In this document: positions 7,274 to 38,248 of the stretch, piece after piece
How the letters are laid out: every line of letters begins with the position of its first letter
How positions within the stretch are numbered: position 1 is the stretch's first letter
Translations under genes and position numbers: made by a program
NCBI GenBank assembly: GCA_000961585.1
Contig: LADN01000021.1
Span: 1-38,270, forward strand
DNA length: 38,270 nt
DNA from: Peptococcaceae bacterium BRH_c4a
GTDB lineage: Bacteria > Bacillota > Desulfotomaculia > Desulfotomaculales > Desulfocucumaceae
Reading direction: 5' to 3'
Notes under the pieces: generated by a model
The model's database searches: none
What the model saw: the letters and a program-made list of their open reading frames with translations, nothing else
What the model was told of the DNA's origin: nothing

Positions 7274-8359
7274 TTATTTTGGGGTAAACAGCGCATAATT
7301 GTTGAGCTTTAAATGTTTATCAATAAATAGGTTCTTGTCATCCAGGTTATACCCGTGAATGTAGATAATACTGTTGCTGTTTTTTACATGATTTATTATT
7401 TCCTCCACCCCGATGAAGCCGCTTCCCATCCTTTTAACGGGTATTACCTTGAACGCCAGCCCCAGCCCTTCACAGGTGATCCTTTCCGTTTCAATCCGCT
7501 GGGCGTCCTCCATGTTATCAGGATCAAGGCAGGAAATCACTTCTTTAATCTGGCACCTCACCACCAGGTCAAGCCACTCGTCCTGGACGGGCAGGGGGCC
7601 CAGAATAATCCTTTTGTTCTGGTAATACTTGAGTTCACCCCGCTCGATCCTTGCCACGTAAGCCGACTGGCCGGCCTCGCCAAGGGTCTCTTCAACAATC
7701 ATTCTGGCCAGATTGGTTCTGTGTTTTCCCAGATTGCAGTGCACATAATAGCGGCCCTTTTTGCTCTTAACCAGCTCCTCTAATTTCTCTATGGACTCTT
7801 TATTGCTGCTTACCCAGGGAAGCATGGGGAAGGAGTGAACTTCCATCCCTATCTTCCTGCCGGCCTCTATTTCCTTGTCCAGGAGTATTCTCTCAAACGG
7901 TATGGTTGGGCTTAAGAGCGTAACGACCCCGGTATACCCCCCTTTTTTTAATATTCTCAAATAGGCCTCAGTGGGGTAGGGACCGTAGGCAAACCCCTTC
8001 CCCGACTCAATGACAACGCCCTTTATAACCGCCATAAGAGCACTGTCCGTAGAAAGGAGTGTGTAAAAGATACCCGAGCAGACAAAAAATAGTCCCGCAA
8101 TTATATATACGGCCAAAGACCGAAAAACCCTGTCCCGGGTAATTCCCCTGTGAAACGTAAAGGCGGCGGCAAGGGAGACGGCGGCCCATATAAATATAAT
8201 CACGTTCATAACCAGATCGATTGTGCCCTGTGAAACCTGTGATCGCTTTAAAACGGCTTCTACCGGGGTGCTGACAAAAAAAAGAAAAAATACGCCCAGT
8301 GAAAATCCGGCCAAAGCCATAAATGAAGCAATAAAAAACAATACCTTTACAGTGCCCAT
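7274..8359 (-). CDS. Membrane-anchored tandem protein-tyrosine/dual-specificity phosphatase, second domain degenerate
   Basis: Last gene of the exosortase-type operon. Residues 1-105 hold about four membrane segments. The first phosphatase domain (about 118-245) has the active-site loop HCNLGKHR, that is C208-x5-R214. A second copy follows (about 250-350): YGPYPTEAYLRILKKGGYTGVV in the first matches LGPLPVQDEWLDLVVRCQIKEVI in the second, and YYVHCNLGKHR matches IYIHGYNLDDK. The second copy therefore has Gly336 where the catalytic Cys should be and lacks the Arg, so it is probably a regulatory or binding pseudo-phosphatase. The ATG at 8359 follows GAGGGATG. Inferred role: dephosphorylating a protein or lipid-linked intermediate of the polysaccharide pathway at the membrane. 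The substrate is unknown. Confidence 0.75.
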   Translation of the reverse strand: MGTVKVLFFIASFMALAGFSLGVFFLFFVSTPVEAVLKRSQVSQGTIDLVMNVIIFIWAAVSLAAAFTFHRGITRDRVFRSLAVYIIAGLFFVCSGIFYTLLSTDSALMAVIKGVVIESGKGFAYGPYPTEAYLRILKKGGYTGVVTLLSPTIPFERILLDKEIEAGRKIGMEVHSFPMLPWVSSNKESIEKLEELVKSKKGRYYVHCNLGKHRTNLARMIVEETLGEAGQSAYVARIERGELKYYQNKRIILGPLPVQDEWLDLVVRCQIKEVISCLDPDNMEDAQRIETERITCEGLGLAFKVIPVKRMGSGFIGVEEIINHVKNSNSIIYIHGYNLDDKNLFIDKHLKLNNYALFTPK

Positions 8360-8396: not shown

Positions 8397-9713
8397 TTAC
8401 CAGAACTTGTTGGATTTCAGCGCCCTGGTGAACTGGGTCACTGGATTTTCCACCTGCCAGGATTTAAGCTCAGTGAGAGCCATAAGAATCCCGGACATCC
8501 GGAACCAGTACGAAAAATACCTGTAAACAGGCAGGAAAAGCACAATCCACCATATTTTTTTTAAATCCTTGCGGTAAGCCTTATTAACGCTTTTATAGGC
8601 CACCAGGAAATATGCTGCATCCAAAAGCAGGTAGCATAAAAAAAGACCTGTCATGGAGATAACCACCAAGGGAAGTGAGTATCCCAGAAAATAAAGGAAC
8701 GGGATTAAAAAAGTCCATGTCAGCCTTGAAAAAGCCTGGGTGTGGTCGGAGATGAGTATGCGGCCGGTAAATTCCTTTACGGCCTGAAAAGCGTTGGGAA
8801 TATTGCTGAAAGAAATAGAGGCCACCTCTATTTCCCCACGCTGCCACCGCACCCTCTGTGAATAAAGGCGGGACAGGGACTCTATGGGTTCGACAAAGGC
8901 CACCGCACTGGAAATTGAGCCTATACGGGCCTTTTTATTCTTTACTGCATTTCTGATGTAAAAGGTCAGATCGGTATCTTCGGCCAGCGTACGATCCTGA
9001 TACATAAAGGATTGAAGAATTATGTCCCGGCGAAACACCGAAAAAGCGCCGGACAGCGTAAACAGGGTATTGGTCAACGTCTGGTAGCGCCTGCCCACGT
9101 CAAAGGCAATCAGGTATTCAATTACTTCGCAGTAGTTGACTATGTCTATAAAGCCGAAATTCTTGCCCAGTTCCTTGTCCACCCTTATTGTCCCGGTGGC
9201 GGCCACCAACGACGGATCATTTTCAAAAGTCTTCACAACCTGCATTATGGCGTCCTTATCCAATGTTGTGTCCGAATCCAGGTTGCACAGGTAAGATCCT
9301 TTTCCGGAGTAGAGGCCGGCGTTTAACGCCCTTGACTTGCCCGGCCGGTCAAGCTTGGCCCAAGATACCGCCAGTTCATGGTGTTCGGCCTGAAACCTCT
9401 GGAATACCTCAAAGCTGTTGTCCTGGCTGCCGTTATCAACGCAGATTACATGAATGCAATCAACGGGGTAGCTCTGGTACAATATGGACCGAAGGCACTG
9501 GTAAAGGTTCCCGGTGGAATTATACACCGGAACAACAATCGTCACCATGGGATAAAAAGTAAGCTCGGGCACCGGTTTAGCCTTATAACTGTGGAAAAAA
9601 AGGCTGATGAAATAAACTATGGCCGTAGAAATGTCAAACATAAGTGGAGCCAAAAGCCAAACGCCCCAAAACAGAAGAAAATTAAGCGTTCTTTCCAAAA
9701 AAATCTCATCCAT
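8397..9713 (-). CDS. Membrane family 2 glycosyltransferase, exosortase-G-associated type
   Basis: 438-residue processive-type GT2 enzyme. Two N-terminal membrane segments precede the catalytic domain, which starts at VTIVVPVYNSTGNL. The nucleotide-sugar site includes CVDNGSQD and the DxD motif D146-S147-D148. The acceptor loop is SGAFSVFRRD, the general base region LAEDTDLT (E245, D246), and QRVRW (286-290) is the QxxRW motif of cellulose/hyaluronan-synthase-like enzymes. At least three C-terminal membrane segments follow. It overlaps the exosortase gene by 8 bp, so translation is coupled. This GT type is a known companion of XrtG and the PTPS-like membrane protein, and all three are adjacent here. 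Likely job: polymerising or extending a surface glycan. Confidence 0.88.
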   Translation of the reverse strand: MDEIFLERTLNFLLFWGVWLLAPLMFDISTAIVYFISLFFHSYKAKPVPELTFYPMVTIVVPVYNSTGNLYQCLRSILYQSYPVDCIHVICVDNGSQDNSFEVFQRFQAEHHELAVSWAKLDRPGKSRALNAGLYSGKGSYLCNLDSDTTLDKDAIMQVVKTFENDPSLVAATGTIRVDKELGKNFGFIDIVNYCEVIEYLIAFDVGRRYQTLTNTLFTLSGAFSVFRRDIILQSFMYQDRTLAEDTDLTFYIRNAVKNKKARIGSISSAVAFVEPIESLSRLYSQRVRWQRGEIEVASISFSNIPNAFQAVKEFTGRILISDHTQAFSRLTWTFLIPFLYFLGYSLPLVVISMTGLFLCYLLLDAAYFLVAYKSVNKAYRKDLKKIWWIVLFLPVYRYFSYWFRMSGILMALTELKSWQVENPVTQFTRALKSNKFW

Positions 9714-10908
9714 CGCTTACATACTCCCTGACGATTTTAAGCGTGGGCTTGGTTAATAAATGCCAGTAGAGGGCTACGATCAGGATGAAAAAAACAATCC
9801 GCCCGAACAGCGTATGGGCCAGAAAGATCATATCCCGCCCCCCCAGGTGTATTATGGTTATCACCACCATGATGCGAATGAGGTTGATCACAAACACAAT
9901 GAAAACCGACACCGGGGAAAACACCAGCCTCTTAAAAAGACTGTATCCCGGATAGAACAGCAGCAACCCCAGCAGGATGCACATCTCCAGGAGGCCGGAG
10001 CTCTCTATGTCGATATCGATGGTAGTCCAGCTCCTGTCCACTTCTATAAGGACCAGTATAGTTCCTGGGGCTTTGTCGAAAACATTGGTTTTTATATCCA
10101 TAAAATTTAAAATATAATGTATCAACAAACCCACCAGGTTCTCCATCTGGTATTCCAGAAACGAACCCCTCAGCAGCAAAATGGAAATGTAAGTGAATCC
10201 CACAGCGGCAACAATATAATAAAAGAGCCAGATCCGGTGGCGGTAAAAAAAGGCGATTGCCGCACACCAGATTAGAAAGCCCACAGCAATTAACGACCTG
10301 CTCTTGGTAACCACCGGAAAGGGCATCCACAAGACATCGCCTTGGTCAGGCAGGCGGTCTGCGCCGCTACCGGCGCCGGAGATATAAAACCTCACAGGCT
10401 GGGCTGGAAAAACATTAATATCTTCCATAGATAAGGCGAATTCAAAACGTCTGCCCCCTTCCCGGATCGATTCCCCCAAGTTTCCACTGTAGGTGTTCAC
10501 ATGGTTACCGGCAACCGAATACAGACTGACTTCCACTTCCCCGTCCAGGCCGGGGCTGTAAACCACCTCAGAATACTTGTCGACAGCGTCCTCATAACTG
10601 CCGTTGCTATTGACATCAAAATACACCCGGCAGGTCATTTTACTGCCCGCATTCTCAGGGGAAAACCTTTCCACCATGAAGTACAGCTTTTGGTCGTTTT
10701 CCCCGGTCCCCCAAAAAACTGCTTTAAGATCAGCGTCAACTGCTGTGTCCCCCTGACCATCAGCAAGAAAGGTTTTCTCCCCCCAGTCGTCCAAGCTGCC
10801 GTCCAGCCTTATGACAGGCTTTTTCCACTCCAGAAAGGATATTTCCGACCAGAAAAAAATCAGCAGAAAAACCATTAAAACACCGGACAGAGCAATGTGC
10901 TTCTTCAT
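9706..10908 (-). CDS. xrtG: Exosortase (XrtG type) fused to an N-terminal CBM9/DOMON-like domain
   Basis: An N-terminal membrane segment (about 5-20) leads into a beta-rich domain (about 28-195) beginning IRLDGSLDDW, the usual opening of CBM9/DOMON-like sugar- or ligand-binding domains, with a possible calcium loop DVNSNGSYED. From about 200 to 390 is a multi-pass exosortase/archaeosortase domain. Its three conserved sites can be aligned: ESSG (302-305) where most exosortases have xCSG, NLIR with R345, and AHTLFGR with H365 and R370. The catalytic Cys position is therefore Ser303, with C310 the nearest Cys. I cannot tell whether Ser is normal for this subtype. Start and stop overlap neighbours by 4 and 8 bp. 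No PEP-CTERM-type substrate is visible in the window. Confidence 0.75.
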   Translation of the reverse strand: MKKHIALSGVLMVFLLIFFWSEISFLEWKKPVIRLDGSLDDWGEKTFLADGQGDTAVDADLKAVFWGTGENDQKLYFMVERFSPENAGSKMTCRVYFDVNSNGSYEDAVDKYSEVVYSPGLDGEVEVSLYSVAGNHVNTYSGNLGESIREGGRRFEFALSMEDINVFPAQPVRFYISGAGSGADRLPDQGDVLWMPFPVVTKSRSLIAVGFLIWCAAIAFFYRHRIWLFYYIVAAVGFTYISILLLRGSFLEYQMENLVGLLIHYILNFMDIKTNVFDKAPGTILVLIEVDRSWTTIDIDIESSGLLEMCILLGLLLFYPGYSLFKRLVFSPVSVFIVFVINLIRIMVVITIIHLGGRDMIFLAHTLFGRIVFFILIVALYWHLLTKPTLKIVREYVSDG

Positions 10909-13900
10909 CTATCAGGGCCGTCCCTTCTTCCGAAATAAATAAGGGAAATAAACAACATCGCCACTGAACCCACCGACAGGGCCGTCCCCCACCGGTAGTC
11001 CGGACCCTTTGTCAGGGCTATAACGATGGTGTGGCTGCCGGAGGGGAGGCTCATCTGCAGCAGATTTTCATATTTACCAGTCTCCCACGGCGTACCATCC
11101 ACTCTCACCGTCATCCCGTCCATGGCGGCGATGGGCACTATAGCCTCAAAACCGTGATCAGAATTGTAGCCCAGCACATATCCATTTTCTGTAATGCGAT
11201 ATTCCGTTAATGGAACCGTTTGCTGAGCCTCATAATTCATACTTAAGTTCAGGATGTCTTTAATAATTTTCAAGGCCACCGGATCACCCGTCAGATAGGC
11301 ATGATAACTAATATTGGCGCCAAGGAAATTTATCCTGTGGCCGTTAACCACCTTATAGCCGTAAACAGGGGCGCGGTTTCCATAATACATAAACTCCATG
11401 GCTATCTCGTCAAGCCCCAGTGGAATGTAAGACTTCCAAAGAGGTATTTCCGGCGAAAATGGCTGCAGCAAGTATTTCTTATCCCCACCCAGAATTTCCA
11501 ACTGCCCCCGCAGGGTCACCGTCTCACCGGCCACACCCAGAAACTCGGGCTGCTTGGAAAGCACGTTTTGGGGCATGCCGGCCAGCTCTATGAACACCTT
11601 GCCTCCGGCCTCCGCATACCGGGTAACCGCCTCGGCTGCCCTGGACTTGGAACGCCATTCCGACCCGCTGAAAATAACCTGGGGGAATTTTTTCAAATAC
11701 TCAAGAGGGTAATCGTCAATATAAGCGGAGTATCCAATTTCCACCCCGGGAAACAGCATGGACAATATCTCACCCTGCTTTCCCACCACCAGGCATTTAT
11801 TTTTTTTCTCCACCAGGTACGGCCCGTCCTTGGAGTGCCACAGGCTGATTCCAGCCTCACCGCCCAGATACTTGTAACCCGCAATGCCGGCGGCCTTGCT
11901 GAAGGCATCCTTTCCCTTTATCACCTCATCATCCACCACCAGTTCGGTGGCGCCAAGGTTGATACATGACCGGAATAAAAATGGATAATACTCCTTTTCC
12001 AGGCCGGTATTAAGGAGCATGATGCTGGAGGACGTAACAGCCCCCTGCCAGGCCCAGCCAAAGACCTGCTCCAGCCCGGCAGTATTGGAAAAAATGAAGG
12101 AGGGGGCCGAACCCAACCGGCTAAGATCTAAGGTGGCAACGCGCCAGCCGCGCCTGTCCTCCAACATCCCGGCTATTTCCATCAGGCTGGACGATCTGGG
12201 CCCAGTATAGACCAGAGTCCTCACTGAAAGGAGGCAGTCTAACAGCAGAGCAGCAAAAATCCCCGCTATTAAAAAGCCTGTGACATATGTAGACTTAAGC
12301 AGCCGCTGGCGCCCTTCCGGCGGGTTGAAGACCAAGCACGACGCCAAAAGCGCCAGGGCGGCAAAACTGGAAAAGCGCAGTGGCCAGAGAAGGTTGCTCA
12401 TGGGCATGTTTGTGTAGAAGACCTGAAATGCCGGAAAAGTTATCAGCATCAAAACAAGGCCGCAAATGACAAGGCTTTTGGCCCAGGGGGGCTTTGAAGG
12501 CCAGGCCGGCAGGGTAACGGCTATGGCCGGCAAAAGACTTATGCCCCAGTAGAAGGTTTCCCGGTTGGCAAACCGGGTGATGGGATTGAATGAAATTTCT
12601 GCCGGAACAAACTGTATGGCGCTTCTGACTGCCTCAGCGTCAAGGCTGGTTATGCCGCCGGTAAGGCTTGGCAGCAGCCACCAGGACGCACTGGCCACAC
12701 CTGCGGCAAGGGCCAGAAGACCCCTTTGGCAGTCTCCTGGCCGGCACCCGCCAAAAACCCACAGCAGAAAGGTAAACATAAGCAGACATAGGCAGTATAT
12801 AGCGGCTATCATTGCGTGGCATAGTATTACCAGGTGGATAAGCACAACAACGGACAGCAGGTTTAAATAAGACTTCCTATTTTCCAACGCCTTTAGAAAT
12901 ATAATAAATAACAAAGGCAACAGTGCAGTTGCCAGCACCCGGGGCAGATTACCCTCCGAAAAGGCGACCCTGACGTTATCCTGCCACACTGACCAGACAA
13001 CCCCGGCCAGAATGGAAGGCGCCAGGCCCATCCGTCCGGAATATAAGATCCATGAAAGGCCCCCAAAAAGCGCGCATACGAATACAAAATAAATGCCGGC
13101 ATAATAAATATCACCGGTGAACCACCGCATCAGGGCCAGCAGATAATAAGGCAGCGGGGCCCAGTACCGGAAAGGCTGGCCGCCGTTATACCAAAACTGG
13201 GAAAAATCCGGGTAATAATTGCCTTTTAAAATTTCGTGGTATAGGTATTCAGCCTTAAAAAGATGCCCCCAGGTATCTGAACCCCATGGATAATGCTGTT
13301 CAGCGGGGGGCCAAAGAACATTGCCGTATGAAATAATAGCAGCCAGGCTGATGATTAATACAGCGAGCAGGTAACGGCCGGCCGATTGCCTGAAGCCAGT
13401 GACAGCGGCGGTTTTTTCCAGGTCCGGGGCAGGTGCCGCACAAGCCTCCTCCTGAATATTCCGGAAAGGGTAATCCTGGGCATCGCCGGAGACGGTGGTC
13501 ACCGCCACCTGTTGCAGCGCCTCCGGGGGGTCATCCTCTTGCATCCCGTTTCCATCCAGCCCCTCAAAGCCGGCGAAACGGCAGTTTACTTCTATCCCCT
13601 TGGTTGGAGTCTCCCAAACTGAAAGCCTTCCCAGGCTGAGATCCATGCTTTTCAATATGTCATCCAGCCTGTTGAAAAAAAACAGGGCCATATTCTCTGT
13701 GGTTGGCTGGACCTTGTTGAAAGGATATAACTTGTTTAAAAGACTTTCTTCATAAGGAATAAATACTGACTTGACGGCGTCCAATACCTTGGCAAATCCA
13801 ACCAACTCAGACTTCCCCGGAACCTGTACATCGATCTGTATCTGCCAGGAGTGGGCGTGCACCGGGCCGGTTTTTTTTCCAAAAGACACAAAGTGCCTGG

Positions 13901-14366
13901 CGTTTACAAAGGTAGCCAGTTTAATGATATAGGTCGACGGGCTGTCGGTCCCATTATAGAAACCATCAGATTTTAAATCCCGGCCTTTCAGTGCCGGTTC
14001 TTCCCGTCCATCCGCCCCTTCGCTTTCAGGGCGTGAGAATCGCTGATAAAACCGCATCTCCCTGCCAAGGGCGTTAATTTCTTCATTGATGCCAACCAGT
14101 TGTTTCTCTTTTGAGGCAACTGTCTCTTCCGCCTCCGCCAGTATCAGCACAGCTTTCAGGCGGGCTTTGCTTTCTGTTTCCCTGGCAACCTGATCACAAC
14201 GGGCAAGAGCCCGGCTGGCATAGCCGGATTCTACTTCCTTGTCAACAATCTTTTCATTTAATTCCTCTGCCTCTTTTTTCAGCCGCTCTTTGAGGCTCAG
14301 GCATTGTACCAGCTCATCCTCAAGCAGTCTTACCGTGCCTGCGGCGCCATTATCTCCCGTACCAAT
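10905..14366 (-). CDS. 6-pyruvoyl-tetrahydropterin-synthase-like domain fused to a large membrane protein (PTPS_related)
   Basis: Numbered from the GTG at 14150 there are 1081 residues, but coiled-coil coding continues upstream to a stop at 14370-14372, so the GTG is not the real start. No ATG, GTG or TTG lies in that extra frame; an ATT (14366) stands 7 bases after a GGAGAGGG site. From the GTG: coiled coil (1-35); PTPS-like fold (about 70-215) with zinc-type ligands H86 and H98-x-H100, ENMALFFF and WETP; then about ten membrane segments from about 258 with YWAPLPYYLL; a large outside domain; and a final membrane helix near the C-terminus. The membrane part resembles lipid-sugar glycosyltransferases. 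The fusion is the known PTPS-related partner of XrtG loci. It overlaps the exosortase start by 4 bp. Confidence 0.8.
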   Translation of the reverse strand: MGTGDNGAAGTVRLLEDELVQCLSLKERLKKEAEELNEKIVDKEVESGYASRALARCDQVARETESKARLKAVLILAEAEETVASKEKQLVGINEEINALGREMRFYQRFSRPESEGADGREEPALKGRDLKSDGFYNGTDSPSTYIIKLATFVNARHFVSFGKKTGPVHAHSWQIQIDVQVPGKSELVGFAKVLDAVKSVFIPYEESLLNKLYPFNKVQPTTENMALFFFNRLDDILKSMDLSLGRLSVWETPTKGIEVNCRFAGFEGLDGNGMQEDDPPEALQQVAVTTVSGDAQDYPFRNIQEEACAAPAPDLEKTAAVTGFRQSAGRYLLAVLIISLAAIISYGNVLWPPAEQHYPWGSDTWGHLFKAEYLYHEILKGNYYPDFSQFWYNGGQPFRYWAPLPYYLLALMRWFTGDIYYAGIYFVFVCALFGGLSWILYSGRMGLAPSILAGVVWSVWQDNVRVAFSEGNLPRVLATALLPLLFIIFLKALENRKSYLNLLSVVVLIHLVILCHAMIAAIYCLCLLMFTFLLWVFGGCRPGDCQRGLLALAAGVASASWWLLPSLTGGITSLDAEAVRSAIQFVPAEISFNPITRFANRETFYWGISLLPAIAVTLPAWPSKPPWAKSLVICGLVLMLITFPAFQVFYTNMPMSNLLWPLRFSSFAALALLASCLVFNPPEGRQRLLKSTYVTGFLIAGIFAALLLDCLLSVRTLVYTGPRSSSLMEIAGMLEDRRGWRVATLDLSRLGSAPSFIFSNTAGLEQVFGWAWQGAVTSSSIMLLNTGLEKEYYPFLFRSCINLGATELVVDDEVIKGKDAFSKAAGIAGYKYLGGEAGISLWHSKDGPYLVEKKNKCLVVGKQGEILSMLFPGVEIGYSAYIDDYPLEYLKKFPQVIFSGSEWRSKSRAAEAVTRYAEAGGKVFIELAGMPQNVLSKQPEFLGVAGETVTLRGQLEILGGDKKYLLQPFSPEIPLWKSYIPLGLDEIAMEFMYYGNRAPVYGYKVVNGHRINFLGANISYHAYLTGDPVALKIIKDILNLSMNYEAQQTVPLTEYRITENGYVLGYNSDHGFEAIVPIAAMDGMTVRVDGTPWETGKYENLLQMSLPSGSHTIVIALTKGPDYRWGTALSVGSVAMLFISLIYFGRRDGPDR

Positions 14367-14405: not shown

Positions 14406-14894
14406 CTACGCCCTCTGCCTTTCGGAAACCACCAGGGTTGGCGTAAAATTAGTTTCCCGCGTTCCGACATCCGGCTCTTTGATAGCTTCCACCGAAATCT
14501 TGTAGCTTTCCAGTGCCCTTAGGAATTCCTCTTTGAAAGCTCCTATTTTTATTCTTAAAGATTCAAGCTCCCGGAGTTTTTTATCGACCTCCGCATCAGC
14601 TTTGTCAATCATTTCACGGGCTTTTTCCCTGGCTTCATCTTCAACCTTTTGAGCATTTTTTTGGGCGATTATCATTACTGACGAAATCACGTGTTCCCTT
14701 TCCTTGTATTCATTCAGTTTCTCCTGTAGTTGTTTGGCTTGTTCTTCATATTCTTTTATTTCCGATTTAACCATTTCTATTTCGGATTGCAGAGCAGAGA
14801 CCTTTTCTTGGTATTCCACATCCATTATTCCCATTTGGTTTATAACTTCCTCAGGTTTAAATCCAAACAGGGTTCTGCTGAACGCTTTTGTCAT
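14406..14894 (-). CDS. DivIVA-like coiled-coil protein
   Basis: 162 residues. The N-terminus GFKPEEVINQMGIMDVEY resembles the DivIVA/GpsB membrane-targeting motif, and about residues 25-140 form an almost unbroken charged coiled coil. Such proteins mark curved membrane, septa or poles and recruit cell-envelope machinery; here it may place the polysaccharide complex, which is inference. The ATG at 14894 follows AAGGAGTG. That ribosome site overlaps the stop codon of the preceding Cys-rich gene, so the two are translationally linked. The next gene begins after an AGGAGGAGAGGG site about 20 bases beyond the stop of this one. Confidence 0.72.
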   Translation of the reverse strand: MTKAFSRTLFGFKPEEVINQMGIMDVEYQEKVSALQSEIEMVKSEIKEYEEQAKQLQEKLNEYKEREHVISSVMIIAQKNAQKVEDEAREKAREMIDKADAEVDKKLRELESLRIKIGAFKEEFLRALESYKISVEAIKEPDVGTRETNFTPTLVVSERQRA

Positions 14895-37774: not shown

Positions 37775-38248
37775 AATAACCGCCTTGTCGGCGGTGCCGT
37801 CTTGCAGACGGCGGAATCCAGAAGCCAGAAGCCAGAATCCAGAATTGTGACAGCCTGCCTTAAAAGCGACCCTCAAGCGACCCCACAGCGACATGCAGTG
37901 AGGGGGAGTGATTTAAGTCCGTGCGGAATGTACCGGAGGCTGCTACTGTCTCTTAACGACCGAGCCTACGGAATGCCGAGCCGGCTGCAGGACGCAGCCG
38001 GAAGCCGGAATCGACGCAAGGATGCGGCGTTGGAGGCGGTCGGCATTCCGTTGGCGACCGAGTTTAGAGACAGTTGCAGCAGGAGGTAATGCAGGCCGGA
38101 CTTAAATCGCTCCGCCTACCCATTAGCGACAATGCAGCGACCCTCAAGTGACCCCGAAGCGACCCCGGAAAAACTCTGGGCTTGCATAAAAATGCTTTGG
38201 CGATTTAGAGCTTTAATGCTTTAATATGGCATATACTTTCCTTAACGA
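37772..38248. repeat. Modular structured repeat, copy 4 (complete)
   Basis: Same order as copy 1: TAAAATAACCGCC hairpin, GCCGTCT-TGC-AGACGGC, heptads at 37814-37848, iterons AGCGACCCTCA, AGCGACCCCAC, AGCGACATGCA, long stem, iterons AGCGACAATGC, AGCGACCCTCA, AGTGACCCCGA, AGCGACCCCGG, then CCCGGA-AAAAC-TCTGGG and the A/T tail ending CCTTAACGA. Outer stem 37905-37921 pairs with 38097-38113 over 17 bp with one G-T; inner stem 37946-37953 pairs with 38066-38073. Confidence 0.88.

Follow-up and report, generated by a model that had tools for sequence, protein, structure and literature searches.

Loss of the catalytic cysteine accompanies fusion of an XrtG-type exosortase to its most likely substrate domain in a Peptococcaceae bacterium and related genomes

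Results

A fused XrtG-type protein without the catalytic Cys

We analysed a 38,270-nucleotide stretch of contig LADN01000021.1 from Peptococcaceae bacterium BRH_c4a (the whole stretch is hereafter called the window) and found that the minus-strand open reading frame (ORF) at 9706..10908 encodes a fused protein, in which an N-terminal transmembrane (TM)/signal anchor and a domain of CBM9/DOMON fold precede an XrtG-type exosortase domain that lacks the catalytic Cys. Across the related loci that we collected, loss of this Cys coincided with the fusion in every distinct copy. Comparison of fused and separate genes suggested that the exosortase has most likely been joined in cis to its own substrate, in the form of the extra domain, with cleavage abandoned. 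Our preferred reading, to which we assign a probability of roughly 0.6, is that no cleavage takes place and the fused protein acts as the membrane anchor of the CBM9-like domain within a polysaccharide-making complex.

The fused ORF begins with ATG and encodes 400 aa; the plus-strand reading of 9706..10908 is interrupted by stops. The XrtG domain (residues 201-398; 9715..10308, minus strand, as for all parts of the fused gene) was recognised by TIGR03110 over residues 205-391 (E 3.7e-29). Membership in the XrtG family by this score is borderline, as the whole protein reached 101.9 bits, just under the cut-off of 102.75, and the cut-off was passed both in a six-frame search (103.6 bits) and by the C-terminal half alone (104.1 bits). 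The exosortase/archaeosortase signature TIGR04178 was matched at 51.9 bits against a cut-off of 23. Together the two models bear out the exosortase of XrtG type that an earlier reading of this stretch from its letters alone (the preliminary description) had placed at the same coordinates; the strand, which that description did not give, is minus.

Alignment located the active site at E302-S303-S304-G305, R345 and H365. The catalytic Cys position is occupied by Ser303 (codon AGC, 10000..10002) in a column that holds Cys in 23/23 of the unfused XrtGs aligned, while Arg345 (9874..9876) and His365 (9814..9816) are invariant across all aligned rows. The replacement of the Cys within an ESSG motif at 302-305 and the retention of the Arg and His had both been recognised in the preliminary description, and its numbering was right. 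The invariance table has 12 rows for fused and 23 for unfused copies; later finds were four fused copies and one unfused. At the 21 columns that are near-invariant in the 23 unfused XrtGs, fused copies depart only at position 303 and, by a mild Ile/Val exchange, at 349, and all 12 retain E302, S304, G305, N342, R345, H365 and R370.

The ratio of nonsynonymous to synonymous substitution rates (dN/dS) in the exosortase domain was 0.091-0.141 in six fused pairs. For two pairs of unfused copies it was 0.085 and 0.107, and two further pairs were saturated. Given such strong purifying selection and the kept active site, the fused XrtG is not a decaying enzyme. That the near-invariant residues besides the Cys, Arg and His included, appear to be held by this selection suggests a role independent of cleavage. 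The fused protein is a member of the XrtG sequence family, yet it should not be called an active exosortase.

Cys loss tracks the fusion

XrtG loci were sampled from 41 genomes (the window's own and those of relatives), 113 class-level and 398 phylum-level genomes, as well as from named genome contigs (26 loci) and 63 + 10 more genomes, with some genomes shared between samples. Merging identical domains gave 40 distinct XrtG domains, 24 loci identical to others being counted once, and a copy was termed fused when the domain profile matched in the same stop-to-stop frame as XrtG. The Cys was present, within an ECSG motif, in 24/24 unfused distinct domains and in 0/16 fused ones, which carry Asn (11 copies), Ser (4) or His (1) instead. 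The codons found at position 303 (TGC/TGT for Cys, AGC/AGT for Ser, AAC/AAT for Asn and CAT for His) are compatible with one-base steps. Within the window genome's own genus, one genome (G002) has an xrtG that reads ECSG and is immediately preceded by a gene of its own for the domain. An alignment of XrtG homologues at this position had been proposed in the preliminary description, and it showed that Ser is not a family trait: ECSG is read in every unfused XrtG, that annotated as xrtG on a Lactococcus lactis plasmid among them. With 16 distinct copies of the two-domain protein, an artefact of a single assembly was also ruled out.

The scan of genome contigs used a pattern that admits only C, N or S at this position and could have missed other letters; the profile searches had no such limit, and it was they that found the His form. 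Two loci (L009 and L021; TIGR03110 E 5e-6 and 7e-5) were set aside as another exosortase type with an ACAG motif. L020 and L044, where XrtG and a glycosyltransferase share a frame and pieces are missing, were counted as unfused because the CBM9-like domain lies in another frame. The XrtG frame of L023 (Desulforamulus putei) contains no more than the C-terminal portion of the domain, and this copy was scored as fused; the near-identical pair L080 and L090, from one genome, entered the counts as two; and the contig of L088 ends past the Arg.

In 12/14 genomes a search with the domain profile found the CBM9-like domain once, at or next to XrtG, and the window genome held no second copy. The other two genomes are G073, with the domain in two pieces on two contigs, and G001, which has neither the domain nor XrtG. 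At L023 a reverse transcriptase gene (PF00078; 3370..4664, plus strand), with an Rfam RT-14 RNA at its start, directly precedes the fused gene, which lacks its N-terminal half, and the other half of the domain is on contig G073:C48; this arrangement is probably an insertion.

We then placed these copies on trees. With the motif column masked, a branch of the 33-row tree set the fused rows apart (87/82; 86% of bootstraps). When three distant XrtGs served as outgroup in a 40-row tree, they attached among the fused rows and two changes were needed; one-change trees made up 4% of bootstraps, a long-branch warning applies there, and the starred branches force one change only. Position 303 switched at least four times among Asn, Ser and His on the tree, and therefore no particular side chain is being kept. 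As judged from these sequences, the perfect association of Cys loss with fusion is one that rests on one or few events and long maintenance.

The extra domain corresponds to the upstream partner of XrtG

The extra domain appears to be the usual upstream partner of XrtG, and so a candidate substrate, with its tail lost, a relationship absent from the preliminary description. In all 24 unfused loci the product of the gene upstream of xrtG ends in a hydrophobic segment and basic residues, and 22 of these neighbours are -15 to +18 nt away from where the XrtG domain starts, the others being those of L069 and the L. lactis plasmid. By profile, 16 neighbours contain the CBM9-like domain; three are Firmicu-CTERM proteins (L010, L069 and L071; by TIGR04145 or annotation), one has a weak profile match (L047), and four from Chloroflexota seem unrelated and carry the same kind of tail. 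The L. lactis plasmid neighbour is annotated as Firmicu-CTERM.

Most Bacillota copies with the domain have P-V/I-P-x-L-G or P-I-P-I-M-P ahead of the TM segment in the tail, the tail of L037 scores above the IPTL-CTERM cut-off (23.8 versus 20.5), and the separate domain of G002 has a sorting-signal-like end (P-x-P, TM and basic residues). Fused copies retain W-x-P-F-P and lack the LG/MP, the sorting TM and the basic tail; at the junction (P-F-P-V-V-T-K-S, residues 196-203; 10300..10323) the chain passes instead into the first TM helix of XrtG and its basic loop (R-H-R-I-W in the window). Since the free domain is encoded upstream with a sorting tail, and this tail is gone in the fusion, the domain now joined to the exosortase is most probably the substrate of that enzyme. 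The start of xrtG overlaps the stop codon of the substrate gene at several separate-gene loci, and a small deletion could therefore yield the fusion. Under the positive-inside rule, both the sorting TM and the first TM of XrtG run out-to-in.

The fused form resembles the XrtG (TIGR03110)/Firmicu-CTERM (TIGR04145) system in its membrane domain, its TIGR03111 and TIGR03112 neighbours and the position of its upstream beta-rich partner; Firmicu-CTERM family genes and the CBM9-like domain occupy the same gene position relative to XrtG. It differs in that the substrate domain is fused, the sorting TM and basic tail are lost, and the Cys has given way to Ser, Asn or His. The L. lactis plasmid cluster keeps its Firmicu-CTERM protein, xrtG, TIGR03111 glycosyltransferase and 6-pyruvoyl-tetrahydropterin-synthase (PTPS)-type gene all separate. 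Also close by sequence are the separate-gene XrtGs of Peptococcaceae and Syntrophomonadaceae (BICA1-7, L004/L032), which have the same cluster order; unlike the fused form, they have substrate and xrtG as distinct overlapping genes, and ECSG is kept. TIGR04145 (cut-off 50 bits) gave no row for the window protein and at most 21.5 bits for the separate relatives with the CBM9-like domain; in whole genomes it passed its cut-off in 0/4, and in 2/196 in another order.

Larger frames also occur. In G095 (L007/L075; L075 2594..7285, minus strand), a PF10131/PTPS-related protein, the CBM9-like domain and a Cys-less XrtG (EHSG) form one 1564-aa frame. At L040 and L043 (both Thermincola), L011 and L018, it is the C-terminal part of a PF10131-type protein that shares a frame with the CBM9-like domain; the sorting tail is retained there, and XrtG is separate and of the Cys type. 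The Thermincola and G095 frames would lend Rosetta-stone support to a complex of these proteins.

The N-terminal domain is modelled with a CBM9/DOMON fold

The candidate substrate domain in cis (residues 31-198; 10315..10818; profile match 254.7 bits) gave no above-threshold sequence match in Pfam, CBM9 and DOMON included, or in the PDB, where neither half of the protein was matched by sequence (N-terminal domain up to E 1, XrtG domain up to E 10). Pfam identities for the domain were rejected, being mostly sub-threshold (DUF5057, GEVED) apart from one FG-GAP row at 7.7e-5 from a single member. The AlphaFold model of the fused protein (mean predicted local distance difference test score (pLDDT) 86, predicted template-modelling score (pTM) 0.68, 34 rows) superposed best on the CBM9 structure 7nwn (Z 11.5, root-mean-square deviation (rmsd) 3.5, 152 aligned), followed by the CBM9 structures 7nwo (Z 11.2, rmsd 3.8, 154 aligned) and 1i82 (Z 11.1, rmsd 3.4, 151 aligned), the ethylbenzene dehydrogenase gamma subunit 2ivf_C (Z 10.7, rmsd 3.4, 154 aligned), 4jpq_B (Z 10.0) and glucodextranase 1ug9 (Z 9.5); the best row outside the CBM9/DOMON group had Z 7.4. 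A model of the free domain from a separate gene (BICA1-7; pLDDT 81.6) superposed in the same way on 7nwn (Z 11.2, rmsd 5.2, 160 aligned) and 2ivf_C (10.6, rmsd 3.5, 153 aligned). Foldseek returned no PDB match at E <= 0.001, its top rows being human dopamine beta-hydroxylase, and a viral fold library had nothing matching at E <= 0.001.

These models support CBM9/DOMON as a fold for the fused and the free domain alike, common to 7nwn, 1i82, 2ivf_C and residues ~31-198 and unaccompanied by a sequence-level match to Pfam or PDB chains, and they uphold the CBM9/DOMON-like domain that the preliminary description had seen ahead of the membrane domain. Residues 98-110 (10579..10617, minus strand) form a D-x-N-x-N-G-x-Y-x-D-x-x-D loop that fused and free domains largely share and whose sequence looks like a calcium-binding loop.

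The gene cluster and other features of the window

The fused gene lies on the minus strand between two genes of the same orientation. Downstream is an XrtG-associated family 2 glycosyltransferase gene (8397..9713; TIGR03111, 393.1 bits, cut-off 363.95), whose ATG region overlaps the stop of the fused gene. Upstream is a gene (10905..14150) for a protein that combines a TIGR03112 PTPS-related domain (75.7 bits, cut-off 69.35) with the large membrane protein PF10131 (514 bits), and its stop overlaps the ATG of the fused gene. With TIGR03111 and TIGR03112 over cut-off on either side, the cluster is, by these matches, a standard XrtG neighbourhood. At its head is a gene for a DivIVA-like coiled-coil protein (14406..14894, minus strand; PF05103, 41.5 bits), with relatives upstream of the PTPS-related gene in six other loci; it hints at a polar or septal placement of the complex.

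Downstream of the glycosyltransferase, 7274..8359 on the minus strand encodes a membrane protein with a phosphatase-like HCxxGxxRT motif (HCNLGKHRT), for which all family matches were sub-cut-off. Elsewhere in the window are two TwoAYGGAY RNAs (RF01731; 22806..22964 and 37931..38088, plus strand), both barely above the gathering score, and a DDE transposase gene (PF01609; 107..1933, plus strand) in a stretch of lower G+C (0.377).

Discussion

The fusion, the tail loss, the loss of the Cys alone, the purifying selection and the gene overlap are read directly from the sequences, and together they point to a probable substrate domain held uncleaved, with putative glycan-binding and scaffold roles. 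Ancestrally, a CBM9/DOMON-fold protein, secreted and with a sorting signal at its C-terminus, would have been encoded directly upstream of xrtG, presumably cut by the Cys of XrtG and then re-attached at the cell surface. Upon fusion, the sorting TM and tail would have been lost and the domain joined in frame to the first TM helix of XrtG in the same out-to-in orientation, making the exosortase itself the permanent anchor of the substrate domain and cleavage superfluous. The nucleophile would then have been lost, with position 303 drifting among Ser, Asn and His. Because the rest of the active site is kept, the pocket would still have a ligand, which might be the P-F-P linker that remains or a lipid/glycan partner. 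Anchored in the membrane and probably binding glycans, the fused protein would now most likely be a subunit or scaffold of the polysaccharide-synthesis complex that it forms together with the coupled glycosyltransferase and PF10131 protein, and its sequence suggests that the former enzyme has become a fixed scaffold.

Several observations weigh against this reading. The Arg, the His and the rest of the pocket are strictly conserved, which is more than a pure anchor seems to need. Another Cys could act, Cys310 (9979..9981), seven residues past the lost one, in a position that is Cys in 15/16 fused copies. The N-terminal domain aligned weakly with Firmicu-CTERM by hhalign (E 2.9e-4, probability 41%) over its DG-F-DDW start. 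The co-occurrence of fusion and Cys loss may be one event, so the counts are not independent, and the root of the 40-row tree with outgroup is unsure.

More tentatively, and at what we judge to be somewhat long odds, XrtG-type exosortases might possess a second, cleavage-independent function in a polysaccharide-synthesis complex, which the fused lineage exposes. Such a function could consist in binding or gating a lipid-linked glycan, or in keeping the substrate motif within the pocket. Evolution would have taken away nothing but the nucleophile and the leaving tail, the other near-invariant pocket residues staying in place, and enzyme and substrate, as one chain, would form a permanent enzyme-substrate complex.

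The remaining explanations keep the fused protein catalytic or make it subordinate to another enzyme. If Cys310, two helical turns (i+7) on, cut instead of Cys303, the protein would still be an active enzyme, in keeping with the near-constant Cys310 and the retained Arg and His. We consider this unlikely, because the fused copies have no sorting tail left to cut and one of them, L026, which likewise lacks the catalytic Cys, has Gly at 310; moreover, Cys310 also occurs in six unfused copies that retain Cys303, and it therefore predates the loss of Cys303. The preliminary description had offered transfer chemistry on sugars or a function without protein cleavage, and the second option is the one that stands. 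A Ser (or Asn/His) nucleophile with altered chemistry would suit the Ser of the window protein and three other fused copies, but a true nucleophile would be conserved, and the preponderance of Asn, the single His copy and the repeated switching make such an enzyme very improbable. Chemistry without any nucleophile, in which the Arg/His pocket catalyses lipid or glycan transfer with no covalent thioester intermediate, is in accord with the near-invariant pocket residues kept in all 12 fused copies, with a dN/dS as low as in Cys-type copies and with a gene that overlaps those of two sugar-related membrane proteins. However, conservation alone cannot separate binding from catalysis, we know of no relative that works in this way, and we regard such chemistry as doubtful.

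The archaeosortase ArtA of Haloferax volcanii, from the same superfamily, also argues against it: in ArtA the Cys is present, the PGF-CTERM substrates that it cuts are separate proteins, and Cys173, Arg214 and Arg253 are described as critical for its activity (PMC9263693). In a published archaeosortase model, there termed speculative, the cut substrate is bound to the Cys as a thioester, from which a lipid amine then releases it (PMC7157517). As ArtA needs both Cys and Arg, an Arg and His kept without the Cys are the oddest feature of the fused form.

A decoy or regulator, acted on or replaced by another Cys-type exosortase of the same genome, could be imagined for the window genome (G000), where a second exosortase-family protein of 290 aa (L072; G000:C49:88500-93000) keeps its Cys in an ACAG motif and is flanked by two proteins ending in sorting-like PEFPA/PELPA, a TM segment and a basic tail. 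This enzyme, however, belongs to a different type and probably has substrates of its own, and no other exosortase-family match was found in 7/9 fused genomes examined; the remaining two are G095, with one weak sub-cut-off match, and the window genome, with two, one above cut-off (35.5 bits). We accordingly give this idea very little weight. The window genome thus retains a Cys exosortase of another type, and it is specifically XrtG that has lost the Cys. By eye, one of the two flanking proteins seems to bear SLH repeats.

Fused or Cys-less exosortases were not found by title or abstract in the open-access literature searched, although an earlier mention in Haft 2012 is possible. In that literature XrtG is named alongside exosortase by one paper only, which reports a 'complete Exosortase G (XrtG) system' in L. 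plantarum. Under our preferred reading of an uncleaved, membrane-anchored fusion, the fused gene serves as a natural Rosetta stone, singling out the upstream CBM9-like protein as the probable true partner of XrtG in this group, for which the curated Firmicu-CTERM model barely scores. The fused copies also constitute a natural mutant series, in which Cys is replaced by Ser, Asn or His and nearly all else is kept, and this makes testable both an exosortase role beyond cutting and the way in which XrtG, the glycosyltransferase and the PTPS-related membrane protein cooperate. The series suggests that such enzymes can have a job beyond cutting.

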